Assembly: GCA_030272585.1 (NCBI GenBank)
Contig: BSYQ01000008.1
Coordinates: 992,001-1,056,000 of the forward strand
DNA: 64,000 nucleotides
From: Bryopsis sp. KO-2023
Lineage: Eukaryota > Chlorophyta > Ulvophyceae > Bryopsidales > Bryopsidaceae
Direction: 5' to 3'
Part shown: one piece after another, positions 20,278 through 59,186 of the stretch
Layout of the letters: the number at the start of each line of letters is the position of its first letter
Numbering within the stretch: position 1 is the stretch's first letter
Translations under genes and position numbers: made by a program
Notes under the pieces: generated by a model
What the model was told of the DNA's origin: nothing
The model's input: the letters and a program-made list of their open reading frames with translations, nothing else
The model's database searches: none

Positions 20278-21917
20278 CTAGCATTTTTTGCAGCCTGCGG
20301 GGCGATCGGCTCCAAATACCGTAACACAACACTCTGACGAAAAACACATGCACAAAAGCAAACACAGTTTCTTAGTTGGAGTTTAAATGAAGTTCTTTTC
20401 AATAAATATAGATATATAAACAAAAGGATGCTGGATATTTGGCGGCAGCCAACCAGAAACAAAAAGGATCAAAGGATGAACAAAAAAAAAAAAGATTCAC
20501 AATATAAGCATGGAAAACAGGTCTCCGCATGGAGAAATTCTTTTGACCAACCCTGTAAACAAATAGAATTTTTCAAAACTGAATTCCTAAAAAACAAGGG
20601 ACGCTTTCAAACTCAATCATATTCTCGTTTTTTAAATAAATATGCAACTTTGCATACTGAATTTCAGGATTCAGTTCTCTCCAAACAAAGTTTCCAGAAT
20701 ACGATTTCGATGGCTTCCAAAAGGAGTCCATATTTTTTTCTTTTTTTTTCGTGTTTAATGAAGACTATCTTCCACAATTATTTTAATTACTTTTTTATAA
20801 ACATTGCCACAGAAGCCTTACCTTTGCTTGCATCCGTCTGCAAACACCAAACAAGCAAAAAAAAAATGTGTCAGTTGTCGATTCTTGGCAAAGATCACAG
20901 AAAAAAAATGCATGTTTGGATATAAGCATTTGCCTCTATAACGCCCAAAAAAACCAGTCTAATGATAAAAGACATACGCCCACGTTTCTGTTGCAACAAT
21001 AAATACATCCTGGGCAAGAAACCTCAGAAATCAAATTAAAAACAAACTTCAAGTTATTATATCTCCACCCTTTCCCAGGCATACAACAAAGCCGCCCCCA
21101 CGCATAAAGGAAAATGAACTCACCTCTTCCTCCTCCTCCTTTATCTTCTCAAGGCTTTCCTCGATCCAGTCTTGAACATGTGCCACATTCGCATAAACGC
21201 CAGGATGCTCCCGACCGCAGCCCAGCCCCCAAGAAGACAACCCCGCTAATTTACCCTCCACGAAAAGGGGAGCACCCCCAGAACAAATATCTTTGCCAAC
21301 TCCCCCAGCGCACACCATATCGTCCGCGATTTCGATCTCGGTGAATGTTGCGTTGCACTCGCTGCGGGGTACCAACGGGACTTCAACTTTATGGAGTTTT
21401 TCTGACAGCGAAAACCGATTGCCGGGCTCGAGAAGATCCCTACAGCCACCCCATCGCCACATGGCGATCCTTCCTGGAAGCATTTTTCGTCTTTGTGGAT
21501 CTCGACCGGCTGGTGTTTGGACTCCCCATCCAACACCAGCAACGCGAAATCAAACCATGTCACCCCGGTCTGTTTTTCTTGACGGAATCGGGGATGGAAT
21601 ATCGGTTCCCCAAGCGATTTAAACGATTCGAAACGCCCCTCGTCGTTTCCATCCCTCATGAATCGATTGATATGCACGACGGTTTCTCCTTGGCGTATCC
21701 TGCTATTTTGGATACACGCGCCTGATGTGAGGATCACGCTCTTTGCGACGAGGACACCGTTGCAGAAATGCTTGTTAGCCAGCCGCCGCGTCCTCGCTGT
21801 TTTAGGATATCTGAGGGAGACCACGGCCGGAAATTCACCAGGTTCGACTGGTTGGCCGCCCACCGATTCCGCCGGCGGCACCCCAATCCACAACAACAAG
21901 AGTGCGAGCAATAGCAT
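20278..21917 (-). pseudogene. Trypsin-fold protein lacking His and Ser, with a frameshift (S1A homologue, copy 2)
   Basis: The exons parallel copy 1: 21124-21917, 20822-20837 (16 bases) and 20278-20333. A signal peptide (MLLLALLLLWIGVPPAES) precedes VGGQPVEPGEFP. TAAHC reads TSGAC (His57 lost), DFALLVLD is kept, and GDSGGP reads CSGGAP (Ser195 to Gly), so catalysis is impossible. Four bases are missing just after GDGVAVG compared with copy 1 (expected gggtggga, seen ggga near 21434-21438). This shifts the frame, which continues as DLLEPGNRFSLSEKLHKVE. With that gap restored the length would be about 289 residues. The donor after the Glu run (gaggtgagt) is strong, and the tail exon again ends in VFGAxRPxGCxKC. 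Either this is a young pseudogene or the gap is an assembly error, because the rest is intact. Confidence 0.8.
21438..21551 (-). repeat. Gene-conversion-like tract in copy 2
   Basis: This is the partner of 16289-16402. Its low-coordinate edge (the downstream edge in gene orientation) coincides with the four-base gap that shifts the frame of copy 2. Confidence 0.85.
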
Positions 21918-30831: not shown

Positions 30832-31315
30832 ATGGACGAGGTCGACCGCGTGGGTCTCGCGAAAGCGAAACGAGCCGTCGCTGCAGTGATGCGCACCAAA
30901 GGGGCCAAGATGTTGTTCAACGAGGCAGTGGACCCTGAGGCCCTGGGGTTGCCTGATTATTTTGACGTAATCGCCAACCCTATCGACTTGGGGACCATCA
31001 GCAGGCGGTTGGATGAGGGACACAATTCCGGCTGGACGCGCGGGTGGTACAGGCGCACGAACGAGGTGTTGGCGGACGTGTCGTTGGTGTGGGGGAATTG
31101 CTACACGTATAATTGCAGGGAGTGCGACGCACCCACGCGTGGTTTTTGCGACGAAGTGAAACGGTCGTTCGAGAAAGCGTGGAGGGACGCAGGGCTGGCG
31201 ATGGAGGAGACTGGGTCAGGGAGTTGGGTCGGGGGAAGCAGTGCGCTCGGTGGAGCGGAAGCGCGACCGTGTGTACGAGAGGAGGATGTTCCGGAATCTC
31301 TATCCGTTCGCGCTG
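30832..31315 (+). other. Bromodomain exon (first exon of the composite gene)
   Basis: Residues about 8-125 form a bromodomain. The ZA loop reads VDPEALGLPDYFDVIANPID followed by LGTISRRL. The acetyl-lysine-contact Asn is Asn94 in NCYTYN, and a C helix (FCDEVKRSFEKAW) completes the fold. The ATG context is gacatggac. Two phase-1 donors follow, at 31315/31316 (ctg|gtgagc) and at 31372/31373 (gag|gttaag). Confidence 0.9.
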
Positions 31316-34300
31316 GTGAGCATTGTCTGGCAAAACAACTCGCCAACGAAAGAAAGACATTCTGGAGAGGTTAAGTTGGACGGTCGTCGTGGTCGTACAG
31401 GCGCCCCGGTCGAAACGCACCTCGCGGGGGGAAATTCCTCGGGGGCGCTGCTCGCTTCTGTGCGCAGCGAAACGGTTCGGTCGGTGTTGCGTTGATTACG
31501 TGAAATTAAAGGAAGCCACAGCATTCCACGCAGGACGTTTTTTTTCTTGCGTTCTTGCGACCCAACTCGAGACGACATTGAAACAGCGAAAGGGTGACTG
31601 CCGGCGTAGTCGTTGAAACTTGTGTTCGAGTCCTTCTCGAATCTCTCTTTCGTTTGAGGCGTGGTTAGATTCCCGTTCGCCGTAAACGCGCGATGGTATC
31701 GTTACGTCAGGGTTCGTTTGTCATTGGTTTTCTGGAGTTGCACCAGTTTTACGGAACGCATGCGCGAGCGCTCGTCGACCGAACTATTGTTGCTTTGGTT
31801 TTCTTTTTTATTTTTTTCTTCCCACTTTCTTGGTTTGACTCGAAAGCCTCGTTCAAGCTGAATATTTTTTTGGTTATTTTGGTTTTTGAAAACTGATTTG
31901 CAGCATATTGTTCTGTTCATGATATTTTTAGTCATGCCTAAGTCCAAAAGGTTTCGTCAAATGTCAAAAAAAAAGGCAAAAAGGGCATTTGCTGATATGC
32001 AACCCCTGTCCCCCCCCCCCAAAAAAAAAAAAAAAAAAAAAAAGTAAAATAGCAAAATAACAAGAATAAAACTATTCAATTGTTTTTTTAAAAATTCAGA
32101 CAGGGAGTTTGCATATCTATATATAAATATATGCTCTTCCGTTCTTCCGTTTTTTTTTTTCATTTTCTGGCATTCTTTTTGCAGAAACCGTTTTTCAAGG
32201 GTTTTTTTATGTCAATTATTTCCAGAGCATCTTACTTTTTTCTTTTCTACACGAAATTTGAATTAAATCAAATTCCGCCACCTTTTCCAGATGGAATGGA
32301 TTTGCCGTTGCGACTGCTTGACGATTTTTCAATCAGTATTGGAGGGAAATTTGTTTCTTTGGATAAAATGGGATCGTCAGAATTTAACGGAATGACGGCC
32401 AGAGGAGTGGTGGTGTCGGAAGACTCGCTTGCAGATGGAAGCCTGAACGGAGGTAAGTTTTTTTTTTTCAGTTATTTGTTTAAATATCCCCTTGTCCAAT
32501 TGAATTTATCATTTGAAATTGCAATCATCAAATCTTGCTATGTTGAGAAAAAATCACACCTCAATAAGCATTTTTGGTTTCAGTGCTTTTGAGGCCTCTT
32601 TTTTATTGCTTAGACAGTTTTACTTGGTTCGGGTTTTTTGGCGCAGATGAATTGAAAATTTCAATTTTGAATTTTTTACTTCATCATGTAGAAATATTGG
32701 CTATCAAAAAATTTTGAGGAAAAAAAACTGGTGTTTGTGTTGCACAGGCGATGGCGAAACATGGGTGCAACTCAGTCGGCTGTTGGACTGGTCGGTGCAG
32801 TATGGAGATGCCCCAGGAATTTGGATTGTAACAAAACATGCATGGTGGGTAAAAAAAATACAAATTCTAGATGAAAGAATTAAAACTGGACAGCCTTCTG
32901 GTAAAGGATAAAAAAACCCAGCAACAACAACAAAAAAAGGGTAAATCAATGAACATTATTGTAAGCCCGAACCTCAGTTTGTGGAATGGCACCCCTCTAT
33001 ACCTATATATATCTGTTGCCATATGAATATATTTATATTCAATATTCAAGATATTCATATTTCGGTTTCTGTTTTAAAAAAAAAAACCCACAGGTATCGA
33101 CTTTTGAGGCCCTCCGAGGAATATGAAGAATATTTACGAGGTGCCTTGGATAAATTTGAGCTTTGCACCAAAGCGACCGAAGCTCATCAGAATGGGGTTG
33201 AAAAGCACGGTGTCGATATCGTTGAAAATTTGGTCAAAAACGTCGTGTCTGGCCAACGTGATTTGACAGCAGCCATAGAAAACGGAAATGTGGAGTTTGC
33301 TAAAAAACAATTGACCTCCTGGTTGAAGGTGAGGGGTCGAGCCGAAAACAAGACAGCACACACTTACTGTTATTTTTTTTACTTTTGCTCAGAAAAATAA
33401 CAACTGAGCTATGTGTTTTCCTTTTTTCTTTTTAGGGGGGGGGGGGTTCGTATTGTGGAAGATTTTTGAATTTTTTTTCCTAGCCGTTGCGGTTTCTGTT
33501 TGTGAGGCTTCCTCCAGCATGAGCGTCAACGCTCTATGTCTGTCATTGTTCATTTTTTCGGTGTTGCTGAATGTAGGCTGGCGATTCGAGTCAACGGAAG
33601 GTTCGAATCGCAGGGGGTGGAAAACCAGGAAGGCAGCTACCTGATAAAGGTATACATAAAAATTACAACAACGTTTGTTGGGCCAAGATAAGCACATCGA
33701 TGCAGCGTAATTGAATTTCCATTCTTGGATGAGCCTGCTGGTGGTTCATTGATTTGTTTTTGTTTGATTTTGGTTTTTTTCGGTTTCGTGCTAGGCTTGC
33801 CATCGGAAGCTTCTCCGCCAGCCAGGGGTCGACCGTCTTCCAGAAAACGTCCGAGGCAGCAAACTGTCGCGGTCAAGGTATCCTTGTTCGTTACATCCAT
33901 TTTATTTTTCACTCCAAAAAAAAACGAAATTAACAAAATTTAAAATGGCGCGTGAAGATTTTGAGAGAACAAACCCCTAAAAACAAAATATATATAAAAT
34001 ATTAGACCGCAGGCACATGAGGGGGGGGAAAAAACAACTGACCAGCTAATTGTTTGTCACTTCTTCTTAGGAATTTGTGCTTCAGTTTCATCCATTCTTT
34101 TTTGGGGGAGCGGATGCTCAGAGTTTCTTTGCTTTCTTAAAAAAAATTCTAAACCAGTACAAAAATAACCGTTTTTGTTTCGTTTTCTTTTTTGAAACAG
34201 AAAGAGACGGACAGAGGCACGCCCAGCTCGTCTGGAAAGGGTTCTCCATCAAGGGTAAATTTTTCATCGAGATACATCGCTGATCGAACAATTCATGGTT

Positions 34301-37300
34301 TTATTTTCCTTAGAGAAAGAATAGAATGTTTACAAAATGCTTGTGGTGCAGTTTTCTCAGCAGGAAAAGCGAGTGAAGAATGTCCATGACGAGCCCAGCT
34401 CTCCGGTACAAGACAGTGACAGCTACATGGCAGGTAATTTTTTGGAGTTGTATACATCAGAAACCCCCCGAAAAGGAATTTTTCTTTTTGCAGAGTGCAT
34501 CCCTTGTCGCAAACATTGGTTCTGGGGTGTTTTAACATTTACTTATGCTCAGAATTTGTGAAATGTACATAAGGGCTCTTTTCAAAAAGAAAGTTGGAAG
34601 GGGGTCTGAAAAACCTGTGGCAGTAGTAAGTAGTCTGAGAGGTCCGTATACATTTGTATATTGTATCGACTTTATACGTGATGCTTTTTTATTTTCTTTT
34701 TTTACGTAATTTTATTTTTGTTCGTTTAAAAAAAAAATGTGTTGGCAGTAATTAATTCCAACAGGGATTTTTTTTCCACAACTGTGTTATTTCTTACCCT
34801 GACTTTTCGCAACTAAGGTCTGTAGCACTAGTCAGACTGTGGATGCAGTGGATCGTTTTTGGTTGCTTGTTATCAAACGAAGGGGCCCTCTGCTCTAAAT
34901 TTTTTTCCCTCGGTAAAAGAAAAAAGGTTTTGTTGCAGAGAAAAAATCCCCTGGTAGAGCTACTCGTTCGTCGACCAGGCAGCGGGCCACCAGTGTGAAA
35001 TTTCGTGCGGGAAAAACAAAAGAACCCAAAATCGTGTTGGAAAAACCCAAGCAATCGACGAGAAAACCTAATCATTGGATCGGAGATGAGGCAGAGGGCT
35101 CTGGTGGTAACAATAAGGTTCGAAAACCAGAAAATGAAAATCGAAAGAAAAAAGATCGATGACATATATATACATGATATACATATTTTTTTCTCTTTCT
35201 TTGCCCCAAGGACATCCCAATTTAAGTCTGACATCCAAGTTATTGATATTGGACTGCCAGGGGGACAAAAAAAAGACTATCCTCTGTTCAACATTTGTTC
35301 GGGTGTTAATAACAAGGTCATAAAAAAAACTGCTGTGTTGAGCTCTATTTTTTAATTTTATTTGATTTTAATTTTAATTTCTTGTTGTGTGTGTGACGCA
35401 GTCTCGCTCGCAGCGGCTTCGAGTGAAAATCACCACTCAAATGAAAGTTTCGTCGGTCCCCACTTCAGCAAATGTTTCACCGGGGCCGAGTCCAGCAACG
35501 TCAGAATTTGTGGAGCGATCTTCACATCTTACACAGGGCCACCCCTCAGACTCAGAAGGTACTGAAAAGAAAATATAATGAACTTGAGCAACTTGTGAAT
35601 CCGGAAATGCAGAGGAACGTTGTTTCCCATTTTTTTCGAGTTTTTCTCCAGAATTATTTTTTCGATTCAAAGGTCAGGAAAAAGAATCCACCTCATGGAC
35701 AGAGCGAATAACCGACTCGCTCGTCAGCTTCTTTTTCTTTTTTTTTTGGGGGGGGGGGGGAAATCAGTTTAAAGAGGAAGGGGGGGGATTTCTTGTGGAA
35801 ATTGAATGCATTGATGATTTGTGTTTTTTTGAAATGATAGGGGGAACTGAAAGCTACGATCCTTTGTTTCAACCAGCCAACGATGGGGATGTTCGTTTGA
35901 GTCGAAGGCGTGGGTCTGTCATAGGTTTGGTGGATTTGTCGGACAGCTCGGATTCCGAAGAAGTTGTGATCGGGAGGAAGAAAAAACGGCTGAGCGAATT
36001 TGAAAAGAAACGCTTGAGGCGAGCGAAAGAAGATAGGTGTGTCTGTCTGTACGTCTGTTTGTCTGTCTGTCTGTCTGTGTTTTCAACCAACAGAAAAAAC
36101 AAGCAAAAAAGAACTGGTATTAGTTCATTTACTGATTCTCGCCTAATATTGATACTGTACAGGGCCAGGTTGCGGAAAGATCTGAAAAAGGATAACACAA
36201 GAAGGGAAGCTCCAGCGCCAACCAGGGATTTTCGGACTCCGGAGAAATACATTGGGGATGTGCTGAGTCTCTGGGAATTCGTGATGGTAAGGAAAAAAAA
36301 AAGAAGCTAATCTTGAACCTCCGACCTGTATGTCTGCGTTTTCTGCAGTGAAATGTTGGACGTATGTAACAGCTGCTGTTTTTTTTCATTTGGATTTGGA
36401 GTCTTCTGCAGTTTTTTGTGTTGTTTTCTTATTGAGGGTCCCTTTCTTCGTTTCCTCCACAGGCTTTCCCTAACGTATTTCAAATACCCCCGTTTCCTTT
36501 GTGGAGACTCGAGGCTGCCATGTCTGCCTTGCCCCGAAGAGATAACGACGGGAACTCCATGATGGTGATTGCTAATTGCAATGGATTACTAATTCTTGCC
36601 AGTTGATGATGCTCTTTCCCACCACTCTTGTCGATAAAAAATGACTCCCCACCCCCTCCCCCCTGAAAATTTTTATTAATAATTGATGATAGGTGAAACA
36701 TTTACAGGCCGTTTTGGCTACAAAGGGCTTTTCGAAGAAAAGACATACCCTTCTTTTGTGGCAATGCTTCATTTTCCCATTGCAGCTCGTATTGAAGTTT
36801 GTTTCTGTTGAATGCAGGGCGATGGTATTGGGCCTTCTTTTCGGCGGTCGTCCCCTTCTGTAATAGATCGGCAAGGGCTGGCTTCCGGAGTTTTACTGAG
36901 GGACATTCACATCGGGCTTTTGAGGGTGGTGGAGGGAAAAGGGGCTGTGACTACCTCGGAAGCCCCAAGAACAGCGAAAGCTCAGGTGTGTGTGGGTGGG
37001 TGGGTGGAAATATCCACAGAAGACTGGATACTCAGCAGACTGTATTTTCCTTGTCGGATTATGTCCCAAAGTCCTGATTTCTGTCGATATGCTGGTGTTT
37101 TGGGGAAGATATCTTTGAAATGTACATACGAAGAAAAAAAAAGCATCTTCTATGAAGTTAACATTGAATTGAAATTATTTTACGCAAGGCCAAAAGGCCG
37201 AGTGCAGCCCATTCACGGAAATGTGTTATATATTCAACACATTTGAAAACATGGCTGAAGTTAGCATTGCACCAACTAATTTTCGGTCATTTTTGACCTC

Positions 37301-40300
37301 AGGATGAGGATCGAAATAATCATGGACATTGGTTTCAACGGATCAGTCTCTGTCTTTTGAGGGCCCCCATCGAAGAAGTGGACGACGAAACCAGGGTAAG
37401 CGTCTTTCACTCACCCTCACTTTCCATTGGGTCACAAAACAGGGGCTATTTTTACATCTTCTTTTCATCGGGTCGTAATTTCGGACCATCACATTCAATA
37501 TAATGGAGTGGCATAAGGCCCTCTTTTTGTTTCCTTATATCTTGAATCATCTCTTTTTCCCCAGGATTGGTTGAGTGTTGCTGACGTCTTCTTTTTTTTG
37601 TATAGATGCTTGCCCAATTTCTTCAAACTCATGACTACGTGGAGTTGGACATTCATGGCCGCCTAAAAATCTTGCAGACCCTTGTGGATATGGCACTCGG
37701 AACGGAGCTCATGAGGGACAAAATCAATGGGTGGGCCAACACACATAGATTCTTGTTATTATTATTAATAATATTATTTTTTATTTTATTTTTATTTTTT
37801 TTGGGGGAGGGCGGTCATCAGGTCGTAGACGGAATGAAGTATTAGCAGTGGGAAGAAAGGAAGAAAAAACGCTGCTGTGTGTGATTGGCCCAGTTGATAA
37901 ATTCATGGAAAGTGGAGGAATATGGAGGGAGGCATGCAATGCAATGGGTGGTTGCATTATCTTGCTTTGATATGAGCATTTTGAGATTCGATCAGGGATT
38001 TCATTTTGTTTCTATTTTTGGTTTCAGGGATATTGAGGGTGGGGGGGCGCAGAAGAAAAAAGCAGATGGGAATGAGTCAGGCAGAAAGGCTTCTCAGGAA
38101 ATGTCAGACCCCAGCAGCAAGAATCTGAATATCGGAGTGGAAGCTTCGGACAAATGGATGGAATGGCTGCAATCTTGCAGGTCAGTGGGGTATCTTGCAC
38201 TGATAATTGATTTTTGCAAGGGAAAATTTTCTCTCTTCATCACTTTTGTTTACATTTTGACATTTTTTGTTTTGTTTTGGCTAGGTTGGGATTCATGAAG
38301 ATTTTAGGAGAGGATATAAGAGGTCGCAGATATTGGGCGATCGGTGGCCGGGCTGGAGCCTGGAGGATATTTGTGGAAAGCTTCCCTGAGTGTTATGCTG
38401 GCAATGAACCTGACGACGAAAACCCACATGGCGGACCTCGATCTGAATGGGGATGGTGAGTTGCACCTCCTATCATCTCCACAAATTATATATCTTTCTA
38501 GTATACATATATATACCAAAATGAAGCAAAATCCCTTCCAATTTTATTTTTTTTGATTTCCTCTGTTTTTTTCGATGTTTGGACAGGTATGAAGGCAGTG
38601 CCTTGGAGGATTTGATGGAATGGCTGCGAGAAGGGGGCCTTCACAGTGAAAAATCCTTGCTGCACTTTCTGGAGAGGATTCCAAAACTTCCTCAGATCCC
38701 CGTCATTTCGACGTCCCCCCAAGTCGACCTGGACTCGGGACTGATCGGAATGCCAAGCACCACAGGCACGCATCTCTGATTTAACTTCCCAGCAGTTTTC
38801 CTTCTCCATTTCACTGAGGGCTGAGCCGACACTCACAGGTCGCTTTTTTCCTGTTCGTTGGATGGATTCGATCGAAGCTTTTTCTGCCTGGTTTGTTCAG
38901 GAACTCTGCAAACGTTATCGTATCGAACACCGGTGGCTCCGGGTGATTACGATATGCTGAGGGCAGACGGCTACTCTGCCATCGTGGCTCCCTTTTTGAG
39001 GGGAGAGGGGGAATGCCCAGAAATGTCTTATTGCAGTCCGTTGGAGCACCGGGTTGTCTTGTGCATTCAAACGCTGCTGGGTCTGACTCCCTTCTGGATA
39101 GATGAACAAGGCCATCTGCTCAACAAGATTTGCCGAGTCATCGAGGAGCTGCAGGTGCGTTTTTTTTGCCCCGGAAATGAAAAAGGAAGAATTACCTTTG
39201 CTAGGTTGTTTATGGTTTTTTGTTAGGTGCACAGCTGGGTGAGGGAAGCCGATCAGTTTTCGAAACATCTGTGGGCCCAGTGACATGACCTTGTCAATTC
39301 GTTATTCTGACACCAAAAAATAGAGCTGCCTGTAATCTTGCCTGGGTCGTCGATGCCCTGCTTTTTTCAACTAATCCTTCTCATTTTGAATCATTTGCCT
39401 GATATATACTTATCTTTATTATTTATTCAATTAAGTAATCGTTTTTTTTTATTTTCCATTAATCAGAGTGCCCAATCTCCGTTCGACATGGCACGCGAGC
39501 TTTTGAATGTGGAGCAGATTCTGTTCGAATCCGACAGCCTGATTTCTGATTGGGGCCTTCATTGGCGGAATAATTGGAAAACAAGCACTGTGAGCAGTCA
39601 GACCATAGAGGACGTCGCCTTGCACATCACCACCCTCCAGGTTAGCCTCTAAAAAAAAAGCCACCCCCCGATATATTCTCAGGCACTGCGTGTGGACTCT
39701 TTTCTATTGAATCAATCAGTGGCCCCTTCTCGTCTGTGACTGTTGTGTTATTGGACCTGGAAGAAGTTCCAGGGTTGCTTAAAAAAATCACAGGGTTAAT
39801 TTTCCTGGCACAGTTTTCCCGGAGATCTACTCATTCCAGTGAACTGTTTGTTTTTGCTCCTTTGCGTCAGCCCGATTTCTTACGCATGAAATTTTGCTGT
39901 TATCAAGGAATTCACGAAAAAAGATGCCCACAGGCTGCACAGGGTCGCGTTCAACACCGTGGTCGGAGAAGCAAGGTGAGCGTCAAAAATGCACGTGAAT
40001 GCCCCCGCTCATTTGTGGTTTTTCTCAAATGGGGGGGCTGCAAAAAATAAGCACCAAACCCCGTGTGTGACATATATCCCCTCCAAAATACTGGGCTGGC
40101 AGGTCATCACCCCACCTGGAAATATCCCATTCGATTTTTCTATTTTTATTTTTCATCTTTTTCAGATAAAATCTAGGGTTGAAGGAGCTTTGTTTTCTTG
40201 TAGGTGTCCGCTTTATTTCCCTTTGTCGACAGAGAGCGTGGTGTTTTTGCGGACCGGCTGTTTGTTGCACTTGCAAAAATTCTTGGGGTTGGCTAACCCA

Positions 40301-43300
40301 CCTCCGACTGCCACCCCTGCCGCCAAAACGGATGTGACTATGACAGACATGCAACCACCTCCTGTACAAGAAGTTGACCAGGTGTGTGGGTCTACCATTG
40401 CTTTGCTGGGTTTTGGTGTGGGGGGAAGGGAGGCACTTGGTGTTATGTTTTTGGACGAAAAACAACTGTTGTATATTTATTTATTATTTTCATTTTGCCT
40501 CACCTCATTGCCCCTTTTTGTGCAAACTTGGCCTTGCTGGAGTTTTTTGCTCATCGATATTTTGGGGTGTTTTGTTTTGTTGGGGAAAGCAGGTGGCCGG
40601 CTCCAGTCCAATCATGCTGGAGAAGCCCGATGACCTCAGAATCGCAAAGGAGCGAGTGTCTAATTTAAAACCAGTTGAAAGATTCAAGATCGTTTGTATA
40701 GCATACAGAAGGTGACTGCAAGGGTTCGACCCCAATCGAATCAACCATAGCCGTAACTGACACTGGCACCCTAATTTTCTGTTGTTGTTTTTTTTCCGGG
40801 GGAAAGTTTTTTTTTTGTCAGGAACACTCGTTCACTGAATGGGAGTTTGCTTTTTTGCCCCTCAACATGATGCAGCCCTTTCGCATGTGACTATTCTTTT
40901 GACAAAACGGCGAGGAGCACCCAGTCTCCAGCTTCCCCGCCGTTCCTCCATTGCATGTGGCTGTTGATGCAACCCATCAGACCTCGACCGGGATTCAACT
41001 CCTCAGCCATCGCCGTCCCCATTCACATCGACAACTCTCTTCCGGATTTCGTGGTCAAGATCGGGCCCTACGACCAGGGCACCCGAAAGCAATGGAAAAC
41101 TGGGGAGCGATTCAGGATGTTTTTTGGAGGGAAAGCATCCAGAGGTGGGCAAGGCGGGGTGTATTACAAGGGAACGGTGGTTTCGGTGGAAGAGGTCAGA
41201 CCTGGGGAGTCCTACGATCCTTGGGAGAGTTTGACGGTGGAGTGGGACAATGACACCTCGGAGTCGCCCCTGATGAAGGTACCTCCAGCTTGTTGAATTC
41301 TCATGAAAGGGGTCATGTTGATTTTTCGATTGATTTATATACGACAGTGACACGTTTTCATGAAGAGGACTGCACTCTGAAAATTAATATACAGCAACGT
41401 TTTTCAGTGAAAACCTCAACAAAACCACTCCCTACATTTGCATCATTCTGCTTCCCCAAACCAGAACAGCGATATCCTCGAAATCATTTGAGCATGGCCT
41501 TTCACAGGTGTCGCCCTGGGAAATCGAAATCGACCCCGAAGAGGAAAAACGGCTCGAAGAAGAGAGGAGACGGGAGGAGGAAGCCAAAGCTAGGGCAGCT
41601 CGGGCAGCAGCAAAACAACAGAGGACAGAGTACATTGCAAGTCTGGGTGCTTACGAAGGAGCATCTGGCTCACCAAATGACCCCGATTTTGATCCAGAAA
41701 TGGATATCCCTGGCTTGAACAGAAGCCGTCGGCGTGGGACCTCACTCAACGTACGCACCCATAGAACAAAGGATGCACACACACAATACATCTAATAACC
41801 TTTCTTTTCTGCTTTTTTCTTTTTTTCCCTTCCTGTGTCGATTTATGAGAATTTTGTTTGTGCTGTTCCTTTTCATTTTCTCAAATTTTGGTCAAATTTT
41901 TTTGCTTCAGTGCATCTTTATGACTACTCCGTTTGAATGTTCGTTTTTTTTTCTTTTTCTTTTTTTTTCTTTTCAATTAGAACTTTGCCCTCCTGCAGGA
42001 AATGGTTTACTATGACCCCTCCAATCCAGTGGGTCCTGTGTCGGCCGACGTGATCCAAGCTTTGCCTGAAAGGGATGGTTTCACCGTTTTGATTTACAAC
42101 TTCATGCGTCGACTCAAAGGAAAATTTAAGTGCCCCATTTTTGCCGGCCATGAACTCGACTTGCACAGGGTATGTTCGGACCTTTGGAAATTTTAATAGG
42201 AACTGTTTTTTTTGGGGGGGGGGCTGTTTGAATTTCTTTATGTGGAGTGGTTTTTTTTCGTGGTGTATTCTTGCTTGGCTAAAAGATCAAGTGGAATGGA
42301 AGGTTACTTAGGATATGGATATGAGCGAGAAAAAGAGTGAGTTGCGAAATCAAATGTGTGAGAATTGCCACACACTGTTGATTTCGTGTCTGCAAGGACC
42401 TGGCATTGCTGCAGGTCACCCTTAACTTTTGTGCTATAGTTCTGTGTGCATGTATTTTTTGGGGGCTCCCGGTGGGACCTTTTGACTCAAAAGTAAACAG
42501 TGTGTTTTGTATATTTGGAAAAGTGTTTTTTTCTCTCCAAGCTAAAAGAAATGCTGTATATTGAATGGGGTCGGTTGTGCATCTGTGAAGGTTTTCCATG
42601 AGGTTCAGAATCGAGGGGGCTACGACAGAGTGACTCAACTGAAACTCTGGAAAGAAGTGTGTCGAACCTTGAACGTCAATTTGACCGGCCAGACATCGGC
42701 CTCCTACAACATGCGATTGAACTACGAAAAATGCCTGCTGGATTTCGAGCATTATTTGGCAAAGGGAGAATACACTCGTGAGGTACACCCCTTTATCAAC
42801 GTTTTCATCAAAACCACAAAACAGCATCTTGACAGCTGAACTCTTGGACATGGCTGAGGCACTGTATGTGGTTGCTACAGGGCAGATTGGCCCTATGCAT
42901 TTCATCTTATTTCTGTTTCTGTCTTGATAGCTTTTCGCTCAAACGAGGGTTTTATTTCATATGTTTTGGGATATGGATGGCAGGTCGCCCAGGGAACAGC
43001 TCCATCTTGTTCGAAGCTGGACAGCGCCCCTGTAGCAGCTAAGCCAAGGCCAGCGATGAGCCCTGGACCTCTCAGTACAAGTCTTTTGCCACACAACCAC
43101 AATCCAAACTCCAGCCAACAAGCTCAGCAGCTTCTGCCGACATCAATGAATCTTGGGGTCGGTGGGCATCAGCCTCCTCTTGCTTTCGGCCAAATCCCCA
43201 CGACTGGCTTCTCCATGACTGAGCTGCTGCTTGCAGATGAATTGGGGCATGAATTTGGAGTTCCTGCTGCTCTTGGGCTTGGCAATGGTGAATAATGCTT

Positions 43301-46300
43301 CCTTAAGCTTCTGGATAGTTTATTCAGGTTATTTTAGTGTTTCTTTATTTCTCAATTTTGTTTTTTTGTGTTTGGTCGTTTATTTCTGCATTGAAATGCT
43401 TAATATTGAAAGAACCGAAAACATGCACCGGATTGGTTTCATTGAGGTAGGCTTGATCTCTTTTCTTTTCTCTTTTTTTTCCAGATTCGCTCACTACAAA
43501 ACCTGTGGATGGTATGCCTGGCTCCTCTGAGGAATGTAAGTATTGCATCAACAGAAAAAGGCCGCTTCTAGTGTCATAGAGATTCCCCCCCCCCCAAAAA
43601 AAAAAAAAAAAATCATTCGGCTCCCTCTCCCCCCCCCAAAAAAAAGGAAAAAATGCTGGACTAGACGATTACACTGCAAATTTCCTGAGGGTTTAGTCAT
43701 GAGCCCACCCTGACACGTGGAAGCTCGATTGCTGTCCAGATTGTTTGACTGGTGCAAATGGCTCTCCAGTGAATCCTGCTTGGTTGCGAATGCTAGCACC
43801 CCGAAGCAACCCTCAGACCAGCCGGACGCCGACCTCAGAGAGCCAAACATCGCTGTCTTGGGTTGATCATCCTCAGGTGGGTGGACCTACAGTGCTAATC
43901 AAACCCGAATGGCAAATTTCACTCATTTTTCTCGAAGATTTTCCTTCTCTCTTTGCGGGATCGCGACATTCTATGGAAACCAAGGAGCTGATTCGTGTCC
44001 TGCATTTCAGTTAGGTTTTCTGACGGGTGTGTTTTTCTTCTTGTATTTTTTTTTTGGTCTTCCAGCCGACACCCCCAGTCGAGGCTTGCGACAATGAGCA
44101 AGCCTACACCGCTGCTTTGGGCACCCCGAAATCTCCAATGGTGGAAATTCAACCTGGGGAAAGCATCGGCATGGCGCTGAATAGAATGGGGAGGGCTCTG
44201 GTGGGGGCGGATGTGTGGAGGAGGTGGCCTGAGTACGGTGCAGGGGGCTGGTTCAAAGCAGCCGTCACAGATTTCAGACACTCGGAAAATGAGCACTGTC
44301 TGACATACGAGCAGGGAACCGAAAACGAAAAGAATGAATGGGTCGATCTAAGGTATGCCGGGGTCGAGAAAGTGGATGAAAATAATAATGTTATAATAAA
44401 TCGTTGAATAATTTTCAAAAGCCTGTCGAAAAGGTTGGGAACCCTTGATCGATGGAGGTCAAGGGCTCATTTGTGTGATTTTTTCGGCACTTGTGTTTGG
44501 TTTCATATATTGATTTATTCTGGATGGGTGCTTGAGCAACTGTAGCGCCAGGTTGCAGAAAAAGTCCTCATCAAAAAGACGTTTGAATGTTTTTTTACAT
44601 TGTGTGCCTTTTTTTGGGGGTGTTGTTCATACAAGGGAGCTGGAATCGGAAGAATTGAGCCAGTACGATCCAGACCCACCCCCTCAGCCACCAACGGCCA
44701 CTGTGGAGTCGAGCGGACCCCCTTTGCTTCCCCATGCTCCAAGCATGCAAACGATCATCCAGCCTCAGGTTTGTGCGTGGATCTAAAAATATCTGTACAT
44801 GGTCTCCCTTCAGTTTTTCCCACCATGCTGAAAAAAGCCAGAAACAATGTGGGGGTAGTTTCGGTGAAAGCAACATCATCTTGAAAAGAAATCAAGATAA
44901 TAATTAGTTAGTCTGTTTAGGAGGTCGCTGTCTCAAAAGTTAGTTAAATGGAGGCATGCATTCTTTCGCCAAACACAAAAAGCTTCATAAAGCTTGCTTT
45001 CTGGTCAGCTGAATCTTTGGAATCGTGGCAGGTGGGGATGCAGCTCTTGGGGACGCCACCTCCGATTCATTTCGGGCAATCGAACGTGAATTTGCAACAA
45101 ATGGTGGGGTTGATCCCGGGAGGAGCTCGACAAGATGGGGCTCCAGCCAGGTGAGTAAAATTCTCTCTTCTAGAATTGCCTAGATCAAACATCCACAATT
45201 TTCCATCAGAAGAAGGTACTATTTTTTACACTGTTGATCCTTTTTCATATGGGATGATGACTGAACAAGAAGCATGAAGTCCCGCTCAATCAATCGGTCA
45301 TTGTGTCTGCGAATGGTGGCATTTTTTGGAACAAATGATGGTTTTTCAGGAAAAGAAAATAGCTCGAGTTTGTTGTTTCTCTTTTGACTCGAACAGGGCT
45401 TCCAATCAGGTGCCATCAGCGAACGGGAATTCATGGTAAGGGGTCGACTGTCTTTAACTCAAACAAAGCATCATTACAAAACTCACTTGAGGGTGTATAT
45501 ATGGGTTGCTTCGTTTTTGGCAGTCATAGCATACACCACCAAGCTACTGGCCTCCAGCCGCCAGGATGTACGCCCATTCAGAATCATAGCTCTTTGGGAT
45601 CAATCTTTTCTGTTGTGGTGTGTACCAGGGAGCTGCTTTCCCAAGTGCTGCAGGGCCGGCTGAATTCAGATACGATCAAAGTGTTGGATGGCAGTCGAGG
45701 CTCCCTCTTCCCTCAGCAATCCAGCAACCCCTCGTATCCACAGGGCCAGCCCTCCCAGACTCAGCATGACCACGGTTTCGCCGCAGCCCCTGTCGTTTCA
45801 GTTCAGCCCGAATTCCCCCCACCCCAACAGCAGCCCTTCAGCCATTTCACGAGTTTGAGCAATTTTTCCGGCCCGATCGAACTGTCGGGTGGTTGCGGGG
45901 TGCTTCCCGGATTCGAGGGACAAGCTGGCAACTTGACCTCACTGCTCTTCGATCAGTCCCCCCCGAAGGATGGCGTAGAGAAAGCCCAACAACTTCCTGC
46001 GTCCGATTTGCAGATTTCGTTGGCCTCAGAGGGGGTGCGGTTCCCGCCAGATTTGGACTCTTTTGCTGAGAAGAAACCCATACGAGTGGTGCTTAACAAC
46101 GAGGTGGACTTCGGAGAGGGGTCAGCATGGGCTGGAGGGTTGGGTGAATCTAACGGGCATGCAATGCAGCCGGGGTTGCCGGTCGAGGAAGCCAACCCGG
46201 GGGAGGGAAGTCTTTATGGTAAAATGGCAGCTGAGGATGCCTATCCTTCTGGGATTAGCGGTGTGGAGCTGGTTGGAATGAGGGGGGATACGAAAGGGGG

Positions 46301-46388
46301 GTTGCCGATGCATGCATCCGAGATGGAAAAGGACATTCGGCGCAACGAGTCTTTCAAGATCAAATTTTCTCTGCCCCGAAAAAAATAG
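30832..46388 (+). CDS. Composite chromatin protein: bromodomain-RFTS-DDT-WHIM-ARID-EMSY Tudor
   Basis: Thirty-seven exons can be chained with phase kept at every junction, giving about 2,249 residues and the stop at 46386-46388. Exons are 30832-31315, 32291-32452, 32748-32844, 33094-33328, 33577-33649, 33795-33877, 34201-34254, 34361-34433, 34939-35117, 35402-35558, 35841-36036, 36163-36286, 36463-36564, 36818-36985, 37303-37395, 37606-37730, 38028-38180, 38285-38455, 38587-38765, 38901-39154, 39227-39238, 39467-39640, 39871-39975, 40166-40381, 40593-40711, 40876-41278, 41508-41750, 41981-42169, 42591-42782, 42984-43287, 43485-43535, 43740-43876, 44066-44352, 44636-44768, 45032-45150, 45397-45435 and 45524-46388. 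Modules predict binding to acetyl-lysine, ubiquitinated histone H3, remodeller partners, DNA and histone tails. The first join (donor 31315 or 31372, both phase 1) is the weakest, so the bromodomain might be a separate gene. Acceptor 45629 is an alternative for the last exon. Confidence 0.82.
32291..33328 (+). other. RFTS (DNMT1 replication-foci) domain exons
   Basis: Three exons encode LPLRLLDDFSISIGGKFVSL, then GIWIVTKHAWYRLLRPSEEY after two splice junctions. The last motif is the signature of the replication-foci-targeting sequence of maintenance DNA methyltransferases (usual form W..T..AWY+L..PS..Y). In DNMT1 this domain binds ubiquitinated histone H3 and inhibits the enzyme. No methyltransferase domain is present in this gene, so here it is probably a reader only. 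Confidence 0.88.
33577..36036 (+). other. Basic linker exons with a SUMO-interaction-like patch
   Basis: Seven small exons encode a Ser/Pro/Lys/Arg-rich linker (for example RGRPSSRKRPRQQTVAVK, which may be AT-hook-like or a nuclear localisation signal). Near the end comes VIGLVDLSDSSDSEEVV, a hydrophobic patch followed by acidic and Ser residues as in SUMO-interacting motifs, and then a second basic helix. Confidence 0.75.
36037..36085. repeat. TGTC microsatellite in an intron
   Basis: A run of tgtc/tgtt steps starts immediately after the donor at 36037 and extends through about 45 bases. It is intronic and has no effect on the exon frame. Confidence 0.85.
36163..37395 (+). other. DDT domain exons
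   Basis: Four exons encode VLSLWEFVMAFPNVFQIPPF, then PLWRLEAAM, and after a linker LLRDIHIGLLRVVEGKG. This is the three-helix DDT pattern of remodelling-factor proteins (BAZ/ACF1, RSF1, MBD9 and plant DDT proteins), which bind ISWI-type ATPases. Confidence 0.88.
37606..39640 (+). other. WHIM-type motifs following the DDT domain
   Basis: The first part, LDIHGRLKILQTLVDMALG, fits WHIM1. The second, LGEDIRGRRYWAIGGRAGAW followed by RIFVE, fits the WHIM/WSD motif (LG.DR...RYW.fgG). WGWYEGSALEDLMEWLREGG follows as WHIM3. Then come FDMARELLNVEQILFESDSL and a Trp-rich segment that match the post-WHIM region of BAZ/DDT proteins. The intron 38766-38900 begins with GC, and a 12-base exon (39227-39238) fits the phase; both are predictions. 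Confidence 0.82.
40876..41750 (+). other. ARF-like / BRWD-like beta module ending SPWEIE
   Basis: The segment WKTGERFRMFFGGKA, then YYKGTVVSVEEVRP, then DPWESLTVEWDND and VSPWEIEIDPEE matches the ancillary beta domain of plant auxin response factors (RF+M.FE...G.+VG....W..SL.VQWDE...SPWEIEP). It also resembles the module before bromodomains in BRWD/PHIP proteins. It is followed by a long Glu/Arg/Ala helix. Confidence 0.8.
41981..42782 (+). other. ARID (BRIGHT) DNA-binding domain exons
   Basis: Two exons join at HELDLHR|VFHEVQNRGGYDRV. The parts FTVLIYNFMRRLKGKFKCPI, LWKEVCRTLNV and SASYNMRLNYEKCLLDFEHY are the helices of an ARID domain, including the conserved GGYD..T/V...LW. ARID domains bind DNA through a helix-turn-helix. 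Confidence 0.93.
44066..44768 (+). other. EMSY-like Tudor module
   Basis: The exon pair encodes VWRRWPEYGAGGWFKAAVTD, then HCLTYEQGTENEKNEWVDLR and EL after the junction. This is the Tudor/Agenet-like fold of plant EMSY-like proteins (VW.RWPDD..FYEAVI.DY....HALVYD....NE.WEWV.L.EI), which read histone H3 tails. Confidence 0.88.
45524..46388 (+). other. Gln/Pro/Ser-rich C-terminal exon
   Basis: The last exon encodes a low-complexity region (PEFPPPQQQPFSHFTSLSNF and similar) and ends in a basic stretch, SFKIKFSLPRKK. Such regions are common in transcriptional co-regulators. An internal acceptor at 45628 (tgtaccag) could shorten it by 105 bases in frame. Confidence 0.75.
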
Positions 46389-47839: not shown

Positions 47840-49163
47840 TTAAACCTCGCTCTTTTTCATGCCGAATTTCCGACCAAACTCTTTGTTGACCCCCTCTCTC
47901 ATTTCCTTGTAGTTGCCATAACCTGACACTGACTTGACCGTGGCGTCCCATTTCAGGTTGAACTTCTCTTGAACAGCATCCGAGAATTTGACCGGAGCTC
48001 GGTTTCCCTTGCTGACTTTCGCGTTCTCGCCACCGATTCCGGCAGTTGGAGGCCGACCCCAAGAAGAGTTGAAAAGCACCTTCAGCGGGCGGTCATCGAA
48101 CTTCTCCCAGTGCGTTCTCATGAACTCAAAGCTGGACTGAATCACAACCACACCCAATCTGTTGTCAGGAGGGGAAAAAAAAAAGCTACCAATTTCCGAG
48201 TGCATCCACATAGATAGTGCCATCCTTGGAAATTTTCTCAGAGGGGGGGACGGCAGCTAACCCACAAAAGAAAACCGGCTCATGTACAGAATCCCTTCGC
48301 CAGAAACCATGAAAGACGTCATTTACCAAGAGTAAGCCACACCTGTTTCACCACTAGATCAAGCAATTCGGCATCCCCCACTCCAATTCCGAGGAATTTT
48401 GACACCAGTTCGATACACGCTGGCAAATCCTTCACCATGTCTTCGTAGTGCAACCACAGCACGTTGGGGTCGTTTCGATGGGGGTACCAGCTTGCGACGA
48501 TGTCCCAATTGGATGACCTTTCCGCAAATGATTTGGCAGCCCCCCGGCCAAGAAACACCGATTCCAGGAAGTCATTCACCGACACGGAGTCCTTGTCAAA
48601 TAGCCAGCCGTTGAAAAAATTGTAATGTGAAATCCCCGCTCGCTCCGGGTCCCTGAACACATGTTCAGCAATCCACAGCACTAGAATCAAATAATCCAGG
48701 TGATATTCCTAAAAATACGGGCTGAATTGTTGTGGACCGCCTTTAATAGGCAAACTTGCCCAATGTAACTTAAATATTCATTTACTGTTAAAATACATGT
48801 CTTTTCCTAGCTATCCATAGCGTTTGGGTCAAATAATCCAGGCGATACTGTAATGATACATTCTTTCTCCATCAGCAAAGAACACATCCCGATGATCGAA
48901 AACAAGGGGCAAACAAAAAGGAAAACCCCTGTAAAACCGACTGACTGACTGAGAATCAATATTCACCTCACGACAAAGACATATTTTCCAGCCCCTTTCG
49001 GACAATGTGGATACCAGGAGTGCGTTTTGTACACCCTGGGGAAGTGGCCCTGATCTTTGTTCAAATCTGTATATCCATAATCATGTGCCATTTCGATGTG
49101 AGGAATCACATTTTCAATGGAGTCGAAGTCCATGCTCCCTCCACTGCGAAGTCCATGGATTAT
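47840..49163 (-). CDS. Sulfotransferase, first exon not visible (partial)
   Basis: Three exons join in phase: 48967-49163, 48343-48652 and 47840-48136, giving 267 residues and a stop. Family features are SGGSMDFDSIENVIPHIEMA, the acceptor-side KTHSWYPHCPKGAGKYVFVV with the catalytic His of KTH, and the 3'-phosphate-binding motif RDPERAGISHYNFF across a junction. VLWLHYEDMVKDLPACIELV and SFEFMRTHWEKFDD follow. Cytosolic sulfotransferases move sulfate from PAPS to an alcohol or amine and are usually about 300-340 residues. The N-terminal P-loop (YPKSGTTW) should lie upstream of ATAATCCATGGACTTC at 49163, but I find no such exon before the dispersed repeat and the kinesin array. The usual GDWK end motif is replaced by KGNRAPVKFSDAVQEKF. 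The gene is therefore either 5'-truncated or has a distant first exon. Confidence 0.78.
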
Positions 49164-52949: not shown

Positions 52950-54640
52950 CCTCAGCTCATCGAGCTCAAAGCCGCCGAGGTCGACCCCACAGGAGCCGGA
53001 GTGGGAGTAGGACCAGGCATTGGAATGATGGCTTTGGTGGTGGGGACCCTGTTGTTTGAACAACAGAAAACAAAAGGAAGTGCTGCTACAGATGTGAAGA
53101 GATTTGTTCCCTCCCTCAAGGGCTTCAGGTCTTCCTCCATCTTTTGTTTTTCAGTCATGGATGGTGCTGACAGCCTCCGCTCCCTTCGTTTACACAACCT
53201 TGGCAACTCTTCAAGTTTTGGGTCCTTTTTTTGGCTGCACTAGGTCAGCTTAGGTTGGAGATGGCTTCATAGATCTTTCCACTTTTGGCATTTTCTTGGG
53301 CCTAACCAATAACAATCACAGGATCCAATCACCACATATTCCCGCAATTGAGAAATTGGACCATCGAGTCTAATTGGTTCTGTAATCCGAGGACAGCCGT
53401 ACAGAGTTGAGAGCCCCATTGAATAGGATTTTACTTGTGCATACCTGTCCGAGGCTGATCTGTGACACTCTAACTCCAAACATGGCTGTCCTGAGGGTTC
53501 CCCCTCTGGAAGACATTCCCGGGTCAACGTGCATGAACATTACTTCCACTTGCCTGAAAGACTGTCTTGGAGCAATCGAGTTGCTATTTTCGAAAGGCAC
53601 GTGGTTGCTTTTGGAAGCCAAAGCTGCCAACGCACTCAAACTCTTGTTAATGTGGTTGGCTTCTTTCAAGCAGTCACCTGTTATTCACACCAGGTCCACA
53701 AGAATTGGAATCATCCCTGGCAGCTAAAAGAACTGAAAAAACCATACCACCAGGCATTAAAAAAAAAATCGAAGTGATAGCTCAGCAGCTCCTTTTTGAT
53801 CAATAAATATCGATTGTATTCTTACAGCTGTCGAGGCTGTACATACAGGAAGCAGCAACATAACACCTTGTTGGGCAACAGGAAATGAAAAATATCTGAC
53901 AGCATAATTACATCGGATTTTCAGCAGCAAAATCACTCCCTCACCTGTCACTTGATTTCTGGGATGCGTTCGCTACCAGCCAACTCTGCCAGGTGAAGGC
54001 ACCCGTGAGTTTCAACCCAGTCAATCTATTGGTACTGGCGTCCACTCCAGTCAGAACATTGTGCATCCTACTGGACCTATCATTCATTTCGGTGCTGCCC
54101 ACAGCCCTGTCATTGTATTGAATGTCCATCACCTCCAAAGCATTCTCTTTGCATTACACCGATTTCTGGACGGCATCCCGGACATTGAGGTCGCTCTTTT
54201 CGGTGGGTCAAATAGGATTGTTATTTTTATTCTCATCGTCCACCAGGAGGTCGCGGAGAGAACCTCATTGTAATTTCCAGCATTTGGAGGTTGATTTGAA
54301 AATCGACCTGCAAGAATTTATTTTTGGTCAGGCTGGGATGTCTCTATTACTTCAATATCGACAGATGCTCAAATCAATGCCATTGAGCTGAACAAAGCGC
54401 TACTCGTTCATCCCCAGAGAGTGAGGCTTTGATGGAGAACACGTTTCATGGAGATTGTTTGAAGTTGAAAACAAGCATTTGATTCCTACCTGCCATTGAT
54501 GGGCCGAAGCTGTCATAAACAAAGTCAGGGATGCTAACTGTTCGATCGGGCAACTGACATGGCCCATGGAGTCCAGAAAGAGCATTTCTTTTAACCCCTA
54601 ATCCTGCAAGTATTATCTTGCCTGGAAAAGACAACACATG
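52950..54640 (-). pseudogene. Kinesin-14-like motor segment, copy A (decayed)
   Basis: Read in minus order: a possible motor start (DFVYDSFGPSMAGRNQ), then MNDRSSRMHNVLTGVDAST (the SSRSH switch I motif), then CLHLAELAGSERIPEIK (switch II, DLAGSE). KEANHINKSLSALAALASKS and MFMHVDPGMSSRGGTLRTAM (alpha4-alpha6 region) follow. Small frame changes break the part between SNHVPFE and MFMHV, where copy B reads LLQDSLSGQAKSM. No P-loop (GQTGSGKT) was found. I read it as a decayed or partial gene of the kinesin-14 type, because the motor lies at the C-terminal side of the unit. Confidence 0.7.
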
Positions 54641-56199: not shown

Positions 56200-58200
56200 A
56201 TTCCTTTTCTCAATTCCCTCAGCACATCAAACCCAAAGCCGCTCACCACCGCTGGGGCAGAACTGAGGAAGGACCAGGCACTGGAATGATGGCTTTGGTG
56301 GTGGGGACACTGTTGTTTGAGCAGCAGAAAACAAAAGGAAGTGCTGCTACAGATGTGAAGAGATTTGTTCCCTCCCTCAAGGGCTTCAGGTCTTCCTCCA
56401 TCTTTTGTTTTTCAGTCATGGATGATGCTGACAGCCTCCGCTCCCTTCGTTTCCATAACCTTGGCCAGCTCTTTGAGTTTTGGGTCCTTGTTTTGCTTGC
56501 TCTTGGTCACCTAAAGCTTGGAGATGGCTTCATAGATCTTTCCACTTTTGGCATTCTTCTGGGCCTAACCAATATCAAAACACAGGAATCAATCCCCACA
56601 GATTGAGCAAGGGCAGCCGAGTCTAATTGGTTCTGCAATTCTACGACACCCGTGCAGCATTGAGGATCCTTGAATAAGCCTTTCCTTGTGCATACCTGTC
56701 CGAGGGTGATCTGCGGCATTCTGGCTCCGAAAATGGCTGTACTGAGGGTTTCCCCTCTGGACGACATTTCTGGGCCAACGTGCATGAACATCATGGACTT
56801 GGCTTGGCCTGAAAGGCTATGTTGGAGCAATTGAGTTGTTATTTCTGAAAGGCACGCAGTCAACGTACTCAAACTCTTGGTAATGTGGTTGGCTTCTTTC
56901 AAGCAGTCACCTGCCATTCACACCATGTCCACAAAAATTGGAATCATTCCTGATAGCTAAAAGAAATGAAAAAAAACAACACCAGCAGGCCTAAATCGAA
57001 GTGGTATTTCAGCAGGGCCCCATTGAATAAGCATTTCCTTGTGCATACCTCTCCGAGGCTGATCTGCGACACTCTAACTCCAAACATGGCTGTACTGAGG
57101 GTTTCCCCTCTGGAAGACATTTCCGGGGCAACACGCATAAACATCATGGACTTGGCTTGGCCTGAAAGGCTATCTTGGAGCAATCGAGTTGCTATTTCTG
57201 AAGGCACGTGGTTGATTTTGGAAGCCAAAGCTGCCATCACCCCCCCAACTGTCAATGTGGGTCACCTGCCATTCACACCATGTCCACAAGAATTGGAATC
57301 ATCTCTGACAGCTAAAAAAATTGAAAAAAACACGCCAGCAGGCCTAAGTCGAAGTGGTATTTCAACAGGAAATGAAAAATATCAGACAGCATTATCACAT
57401 CTGATTTTCAGCAGCAAAAGCACTCCCTCACCTGTCGCTTGACTTCTGGCGATGCGTTAGCTACCAGCCAGATCTACCAAGTAAAGGCTGTGGGTTTGCA
57501 CCTCAATCAACCTGCTGGTACTGGCTTCCACTCCAGTCAGACACTGAGCGGCCATTGCACCTATCATTCATATTCCCCACAACCCTGTTATTGAATGCAA
57601 TGTCCATGACCTCCAGATGATCCTCTGTGCATTCCATCGATTTCTGGATGGCATCCGACATTTAGGCTGCTCTTTTCAGTGGAGCGGATGGCCAGTTTTT
57701 ATTTCTCTTCTTGTCGCGTCCCGGAGAGCCTTATTGTAGATTCCCAGCATTTGGCTGTCGATTCGAAAATTGACCTGAATTAGGAGCAATAGTTGACAAT
57801 CATCAGGAATTGTTTTGGACAGTATCACTCCTTTTTTTCTTTTCATATCTGGGGGGACTTCGTCTGTTTCTGGAGGGTGGTTTCATTCTCAAGTCGTTGA
57901 ATAAAAACTTCTGGGATGCCTCTAATACTTCCACATCAACAAATGCTCAATAAAAAAAATTATAATAATAATAATAAAAACTAAAGGAACACGTTTCATG
58001 GAGCAGTTCCGAGTTTGGAAACAAGCATTTGATTCCTACCTGGCCATTGAAGGGTCGAAGCTGTTCGAAAACACGGACAGGATGCTGACTTTTTGATTGG
58101 GAACATGACATGGGTCATGGAGTCCGGGATCAGCCTTTTTTTTAACCCTTAATCCCTCCACAGTCGGTCATTTCATCTTGGAATGGCTGCCTGGAAAAGA
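56200..58200 (-). pseudogene. Kinesin-14-like motor segment, copy B, with a duplicated exon block
   Basis: The switch II exon near 57430-57560 reads THSLYLVDLAGS and then a stop codon in the place of Glu/Gln, so this copy is broken there. The next exon occurs twice in tandem. One copy is at about 56990-57255 (AALASKINHVPSEIATRLLQ, then DSLSGQAKSMMFMRVAPEMS). The other is at about 56640-56917 (EANHITKSLSTL, then HSLSGQAKSMMFMHVGPEMS). A further exon near 56400-56510 reads DPKLKELAKVMETKGAEAVS. The P-loop exon is not seen. Confidence 0.7.
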
Positions 58201-58760: not shown

Positions 58761-59186
58761 AAAAGAAACCACACACACACACATATATCCCCTGCCCAGT
58801 GCAATCCCTCAGGTTCCCCTCCTGCTGCCACATATAGCTCCCTCACAGCGAAAATCACTTATTTGGGCCAACCCCTGTTCTGCTCAATATGGCTCTGGAT
58901 GCCCACATTACCCTGGCACATTGAACACATAAAATCACTGGTCAGTGGTTTTTCTCTCCCTCAAGGAAGGAAAGTATTCCTTACTGGATGAAAAAAAGTT
59001 GCACACTGACCGGCAGCCACACAAGGATCACTCATGGATCTCAACACTCACCGGCCCCTGCAGCAAAAGGGGTTGCTATTGAAGTGCCCGACATTTCATT
59101 GGCCTGTGACTGAGCTGAATCCACCACCACCGTATACAGATTGAATCAAGCCTGGGGCACCGATGTCAGACTTCACTCTGCGGTCA

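Follow-up and report, generated by a model that had tools for sequence, protein, structure and literature searches.

The question raised by positions 30,832 to 46,388 of a 64,000 nt stretch of the green alga Bryopsis sp. KO-2023 (contig BSYQ01000008.1, positions 992,001 to 1,056,000 of the forward strand; hereafter the window) is whether the many exons found there belong to a single gene, and what kind of protein such a gene would encode. A prior inspection of the letters (the sequence-only reading) had joined these exons into one composite chromatin protein with bromodomain, RFTS, DDT-WHIM, ARF-like, ARID and EMSY Tudor modules. Our analysis points to one intron-rich gene, running from about 32.3 to 46.4 kb, which probably encodes a large protein built on a DDT-WHIM1-WSD core, a DDT/WHIM subunit of an ISWI-type remodeler with added DNA-binding and histone-binding modules, its function being predicted from these domains.

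Gene model

The plus-strand model consists of 36 exons with 6,657 coding bases, encodes 2,218 residues from an ATG at 30832 to a stop at 46388, and contains no internal stops; all of the features of the gene described below lie on this strand. Its 35 introns have a median length of 230 nt and, apart from intron 1 (975 nt), measure 94-505 nt; the one after 38765 is of the GC-AG type. Exons were picked by eye, and 20 of 21 could be placed, at 32.3-39.6 kb, in phases compatible with joining. These 20 exons of the same gene then served to train codon and splice tables for a small exon-chaining program (the gene-finder). Beyond exon 1, 24 exons are open in a single frame, and all 24 have the phase demanded by the chain, although this agreement is a matter of consistency and not an independent test, since the chain had been selected for being in phase. 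At one setting the gene-finder scored 552 for the plus strand of 30.6-46.6 kb and 61 for the minus strand, compared with a mean of 14 and a maximum of 35 for 20 dinucleotide shuffles, a contrast that is inflated because the tables come from the gene being scored.

The model thus rebuilt bears out the phase-consistent plus-strand chain from 30832 to 46388 proposed by the sequence-only reading, with 36 exons and 2,218 residues in place of the 37 exons and approximately 2,249 residues given there; the difference between 37 and 36 lies within the uncertainty of the small exons. Excluded from the model were a 12-nt exon (39227-39238), short exons returned by the finder at low penalty, upstream exons from 29197, and two intermediate exons (31401-31474 and 31669-31711). 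The starts of exons 24, 28 and 31 were set contrary to the finder, in the case of exon 28 so that the ARID would gain residues it requires. Exon 25 could alternatively begin near 40980, at the cost of approximately 35 residues ahead of the ARF_AD. The last exon (45530-46388), containing the C-terminus and the stop, was assigned from its open reading frame and coding score and has no Pfam match at E ≤1. A search of the window with Rfam at gathering scores produced no matches.

Domain content of the predicted protein

Pfam was used to search first the stop-masked plus-strand frames of 30.8-46.5 kb and then the spliced model, with curated cut-offs; the resulting scores are independent of the trained codon and splice tables. 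Seven families exceeded their cut-offs in the spliced model: Bromodomain, DNMT1-RFD, DDT, WHIM1, WSD, ARF_AD and ARID. The unspliced frames gave fragments of Bromodomain, RFD, WHIM1, WSD, ARF_AD and ARID, while RFD, DDT and WSD reached the cut-off solely after splicing. The RFD, DDT, WSD, ARF_AD and ARID domains each cross an intron of the model. Of the 2,218 residues, 2,035 were included in the main scan; the other 183, a linker between the RFTS and the DDT, had no Pfam match.

The core of the protein comprises the DDT (36248-36525, exons 12-13; profile positions 2-35 of 58), with 22.3 bits against a cut-off of 22, the WHIM1 (37612-37728, exon 16), with 21.6 bits (cut-off 19.1), and the WSD, which corresponds to WHIM2 and part of WHIM3 (38298-38677, exons 18-19), with 28.4 bits (cut-off 25.4). 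On the unspliced frames WHIM1 scored 19.2 bits, just above its cut-off, and WSD 13.7 bits, below it. A GxD signature of the WSD is described in a passage of PMC11789628, and we assigned by eye a GxD-like G-E-D within the WSD found here (aa 861-863; 38307-38315). According to portions of PMC12093815, predicted models of Itc1-Isw2 bring the DDT and WHIM into contact with the SLIDE domain, and the same is predicted for ACF1, while excerpts from PMC10538959 and PMC11950633 report ISWI partnership for Arabidopsis DDR1/3 and RLT1/2. The locus is credibly a large multi-domain chromatin gene, and we class it as a variation on the ISWI-partner type, not as a type of its own.

The RFTS module (DNMT1-RFD; 32299-33199) is spread over exons 2-4 (32291-32452, 32748-32844 and 33094-33328) and scored 43.9 bits (cut-off 22) with profile positions 3-127 of 144 matched, compared with only 16.9 bits, below the cut-off, in a single unspliced frame. 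Four PDB chains named DNMT1 matched this stretch (E value 2e-4), and the other four of the eight hits at E ≤10 were unrelated proteins. The two DNMT1 alignments shown each had two RFD-like stretches that were weak singly; a pair of RFDs characterizes plant MET1, whereas human DNMT1 lacks this feature. Human RFTS has a cysteine-based zinc site, and since the stretch found here (aa 162-328) contains one Cys, a zinc site of the human type cannot be present. No C5-methyltransferase was matched by Pfam in the plus-strand frames of 30.8-46.5 kb or in the spliced model, and an identity as a methyltransferase or DNMT1 was rejected on this ground. In a table within PMC6814106, a source consulted in extract, a DNMT1-RFD domain is also listed for a single Brassica rapa PHD-finger protein.

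The ARF_AD module (41048-41531, exons 25-26) scored 51.2 bits (cut-off 27), and 33.5 bits on unspliced frames, and resembles the crypto-Tudor of PHIP. BRWD_AD scored 23.4 bits at the same place, below its own cut-off of 40. ARF1 matched it in the PDB (E value approximately 1e-7); an alignment of approximately 85 residues is obtained with ARF1 and ARF5 chains of the Arabidopsis type, and the 'VSPWE' end is common to the module and ARF1. In the sections of PMC11685440 on which we draw, the second Tudor in the crypto-Tudor of PHIP is given as the origin of the ARF ancillary domain, methylated H3K4 is named as a ligand of PHIP crypto-Tudors, PHIPs score below the PF06507 cut-off, and 2472 ancillary-domain hits divide into 54% ARF and 45% PHIP architectures, single-domain hits having been discarded. 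Among the Pfam matches of the frames and the spliced model there was neither a B3 DNA-binding domain nor a PB1, the marks of ARF transcription factors, and the spliced model had no match to the WD40 propeller that marks PHIP/BRWD. Membership of either family was therefore rejected, the defining domains (WD40 and BRWD_AD above cut-off for the one, B3 and PB1 for the other) being absent.

The ARID (42071-42749, exons 27-28) is complete, covering positions 2-89 of the 89-position profile with 68.1 bits (cut-off 24.1; 41.4 bits on unspliced frames), and is split by a 421-nt intron. ARID4A in the PDB matches it across the exon junction (E value 1.2e-9).

Exon 32 (44171-44352) provides a Tudor-like lead. 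By eye we take it to resemble an EMSY-like Tudor. It had no Pfam hit at E ≤1 in the spliced-model scan and a sub-threshold match to LBR_tudor (13.2 bits, cut-off 22), while the PDB chain 7de9_A ('Transcriptional regulator'), which is presumably a plant Tudor, matched with an E value of 0.91, behind an unrelated TPR chain at 0.81. AlphaFold2 models had a mean predicted local distance difference test score (pLDDT) of 51 for 95 aa and 50 for a trimmed 59 aa, and Foldseek found nothing at E ≤0.001 for either. EML proteins carry an ENT domain, for which the spliced model gave no Pfam match.

Set against these results, the domain assignments of the sequence-only reading fared unevenly. Its ISWI-partner-type DDT/WHIM unit is supported by DDT (marginally), WHIM1 and WSD, its RFTS lacking any methyltransferase agrees with the Pfam results for the gene, and its ARID is upheld over the full profile. 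The ARF-like module is indeed an ARF_AD match, better read as the second Tudor of a PHIP/BRWD crypto-Tudor. Recognition of histone ubiquitination, which had been suggested for the protein, finds no support in the sequence, given the single Cys and the absence of the human zinc site, and the EMSY Tudor remains a lead, having no significant match by sequence or fold. Among the Pfam families which that reading had named, Bromodomain, DNMT1-RFD, DDT, WHIM1, WHIM2-3 (as WSD) and ARID were matched, and an EMSY/ENT-type Tudor was not matched above cut-off.

The bromodomain exon

Exon 1 (30832-31315) encodes a bromodomain at aa 26-94 (30907-31113) with 44 bits (cut-off 21.7), or 40.4 bits on unspliced frames. 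In an alignment to BRD4 from the PDB, N94 falls on the Asn of 'cyiyn'; the conserved bromodomain Asn binds acetyl-lysine, and the domain found here thus has both the profile match and this Asn. The domain itself was correctly recognized by the sequence-only reading, while its membership of the same gene, also claimed there, is placed in doubt by a poor acceptor, a long gap and gene-finder results that depend on the setting. In our judgment the odds are about even whether the bromodomain opens the long gene as its first exon or constitutes a small gene by itself. A model in which it forms the N-terminus, with the order Bromo-RFTS-DDT-WHIM-ARF_AD-ARID-Tudor-like in one chain, is compatible with the one-gene explanation given above but stronger, and we place it slightly short of an even chance.

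The direct splice from 31315 to 32291 required by that model fits in phase, which would happen by chance 1 time in 3, and its donor at 31315 is excellent, with 0.2% of background GT sites scoring as high. The acceptor at 32291 is poor, being equaled or exceeded by 42% of background AG sites, and only 6% of the other acceptors in the model are as low; better ones are present within the gap that follows the donor. This gap (31316-32290), either an intron or intergenic, is four times the median intron. For each of the 35 introns we recorded the room from the read-through stop to the next in-frame Met (or to the end of the next exon if there was no Met) and the number of AATAAA/ATTAAA hexamers. 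Intron 1 has 756 nt of room and contains three of the five hexamers found in all 35 introns, and the RFTS exon has an in-frame Met as its second full codon; the hexamers and the Met count against the join. The other 34 introns have at most 556 nt of room and two hexamers among them. A GC- and CpG-rich stretch at 30.63-31.5 kb, taken with a GC content of 29% at 32001-32250, just 5' of the RFTS exon, would instead be in keeping with only one 5' end, lying ahead of the bromodomain. Two of three gene-finder settings favored joining the bromodomain, by approximately 5 units, but by a route through the two extra small exons at 31401-31474 and 31669-31711, unlike the direct splice of the model, and at a gene penalty of 10 the gene-finder separated the bromodomain as a two-exon gene (30832-31495). 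Precedents for DDT/WHIM proteins with a bromodomain include ACF1, where it is C-terminal (from portions of PMC12093815), and a rice BRD-PHD-WHIM1-ZnF architecture (from an excerpt of PMC10030601). Another frame behind the bromodomain, at 31240-31315 (+), looks by eye protein-like and charged as far as the donor at 31315, with a phase that does not fit the RFTS exon at 32291.

Searches for relatives

The same architecture may already be catalogued in related genomes with no paper attached, a reading compatible with the others to which we give a fair possibility, somewhat below even. Every matched module belongs to a known family, and predicted proteins of many algae and protists have been deposited without description. 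Text searches of the literature found no paper tied to this domain order, which is weak evidence of absence, eukaryotic proteomes lying outside the search. Three contig scans, for relatives of the RFTS in viral contigs and of the ARF_AD-ARID in viral contigs and prokaryotic genomes, found none, although these are not the collections where a eukaryotic relative would be expected to lie.

Probable continuity from the RFTS to the stop

From the RFTS to the stop, the exons very probably form one gene. At a gene penalty of 20, five split points other than that behind the bromodomain scored 13-37 units lower than the unsplit chain. Several observations weigh against the one-gene, ISWI-partner explanation. 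In addition to the inflated score contrast noted above, the DDT match is both marginal and partial and was not listed on unspliced frames, a sequence search of the PDB with the DDT-WSD stretch found no relative, and exons 20-23, which lie between the WSD and the ARF_AD, have no Pfam family above cut-off. At a gene penalty of 10, a split between WHIM and ARF_AD scored only 3 units lower, and one just before the ARF_AD 5 units lower.

The alternative to which these splits correspond is two or three neighboring genes on one strand. The bromodomain would then have a small gene to itself, RFTS, DDT and WHIM would share a second, and ARF_AD, ARID and the Tudor-like segment a third. The gene-finder does split off the bromodomain at the lower penalty, and introns 19-24 are crossed by no matched domain. 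Splits near the ARF_AD are disfavored mainly because the space from the stop of the second gene to the start of the third would be merely 239-271 nt; introns 21-24 also contain no AATAAA/ATTAAA. Considering these points along with the cost of the tested splits at the higher penalty, we regard a break between WHIM and ARF_AD as improbable. Chance open frames were rejected on the shuffle and opposite-strand controls.

Proposed function

If the one-gene explanation is correct, the DDT-WHIM1-WSD unit would, by analogy with ACF1/Itc1, RLT and DDR, grip the SLIDE end of an ISWI ATPase, and the other modules would position the remodeler. The ARID would be expected from its family to bind DNA, and the ARF_AD/crypto-Tudor module, possibly along with the C-terminal Tudor-like segment, may read H3 methylation. 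In DNMT1 the RFTS acts by protein contacts, and by such contacts it may target or regulate the complex here. The bromodomain, if joined, would read acetylation. That a single polypeptide combines bromodomain, RFTS, DDT-WHIM, crypto-Tudor, ARID and a second Tudor appears doubtful to us. Were it true, modules that in plants are divided among different subunits, those of the ISWI (RLT, ARID5) and the GTE4-EML complexes, would be fused into a single chain, and ISWI remodeling would be tied to a targeting domain of the maintenance-methylation type.

It is of interest to speculate on what one protein would imply. An RFTS outside a DNA methyltransferase would be linked to an ISWI-type partner, suggesting a direct physical route from replication-linked or methylation-linked targeting to nucleosome spacing. 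The ARF ancillary domain would occur in a third context, beyond the ARF and PHIP proteins that, in the relevant part of the survey (PMC11685440), account almost wholly for it. The fusion would also give a hint as to which subunits cooperate in plant ISWI complexes.

Neighboring features in the window

Several other coding matches were seen in the window. A Sulfotransferase domain (48346-48660, minus strand; 42.7 bits) lies tail to tail with the chromatin gene. Kinesin motor-domain fragments occur at 53457-54267 and 56708-57252 on the minus strand, with the C-terminal part of the profile found at three places in different frames, which suggests duplicated or broken copies. Further minus-strand matches are a Subtilase family match (59147-59791; 28.8 bits) and a trypsin-like protease divided into two parts that lie in different frames (21163-21863); the finder began another trypsin-like reading at 16759, also on the minus strand, which was judged by eye. 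A class 3 lipase (18653-19084; 109.5 bits) is on the plus strand.

Comparison with known proteins

The closest resemblance of the predicted protein is to Itc1, ACF1/BAZ1A, RLT1/2 and DDR1-3, with which it shares the order DDT, WHIM1, WSD and, by eye, GxD-like residues in the WSD. It differs from them in having no Pfam match to PHD, WAC or zf-4CXXC_R1 and in the addition of the RFTS, ARF_AD and ARID. The likeness to DNMT1/MET1 consists of the RFD match and of an 'awyrl..ps..y' pattern common to the DNMT1 chain 9peb, whereas no methyltransferase, BAH or CXXC was among the Pfam matches of the plus-strand frames and spliced model. PHIP/BRWD proteins differ in that here PF06507 is above cut-off, with neither B3 nor WD40 among the matches; as no WD40, B3 or PB1 was matched, the protein would represent a third architecture beside those of PHIP/BRWD and ARF.

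Two plant complexes offer a further comparison. Going by the title of a cited work, Arabidopsis ARID5 likewise has an ARID attached to an ISWI complex, but as a component named separately, whereas in Bryopsis the ARID would lie within the DDT/WHIM chain. EML1 is described as a single-Tudor reader in a passage of PMC8669150, and in the Arabidopsis GTE4-EML complex a bromodomain protein and a reader of H3K4me3 bind each other (PMC11749275). The pairing of a bromodomain with an EML reader is thus the point of likeness, but it is made by two proteins in Arabidopsis and would be made here by at most one chain, in which the link to the bromodomain and the identity of the Tudor are both putative.

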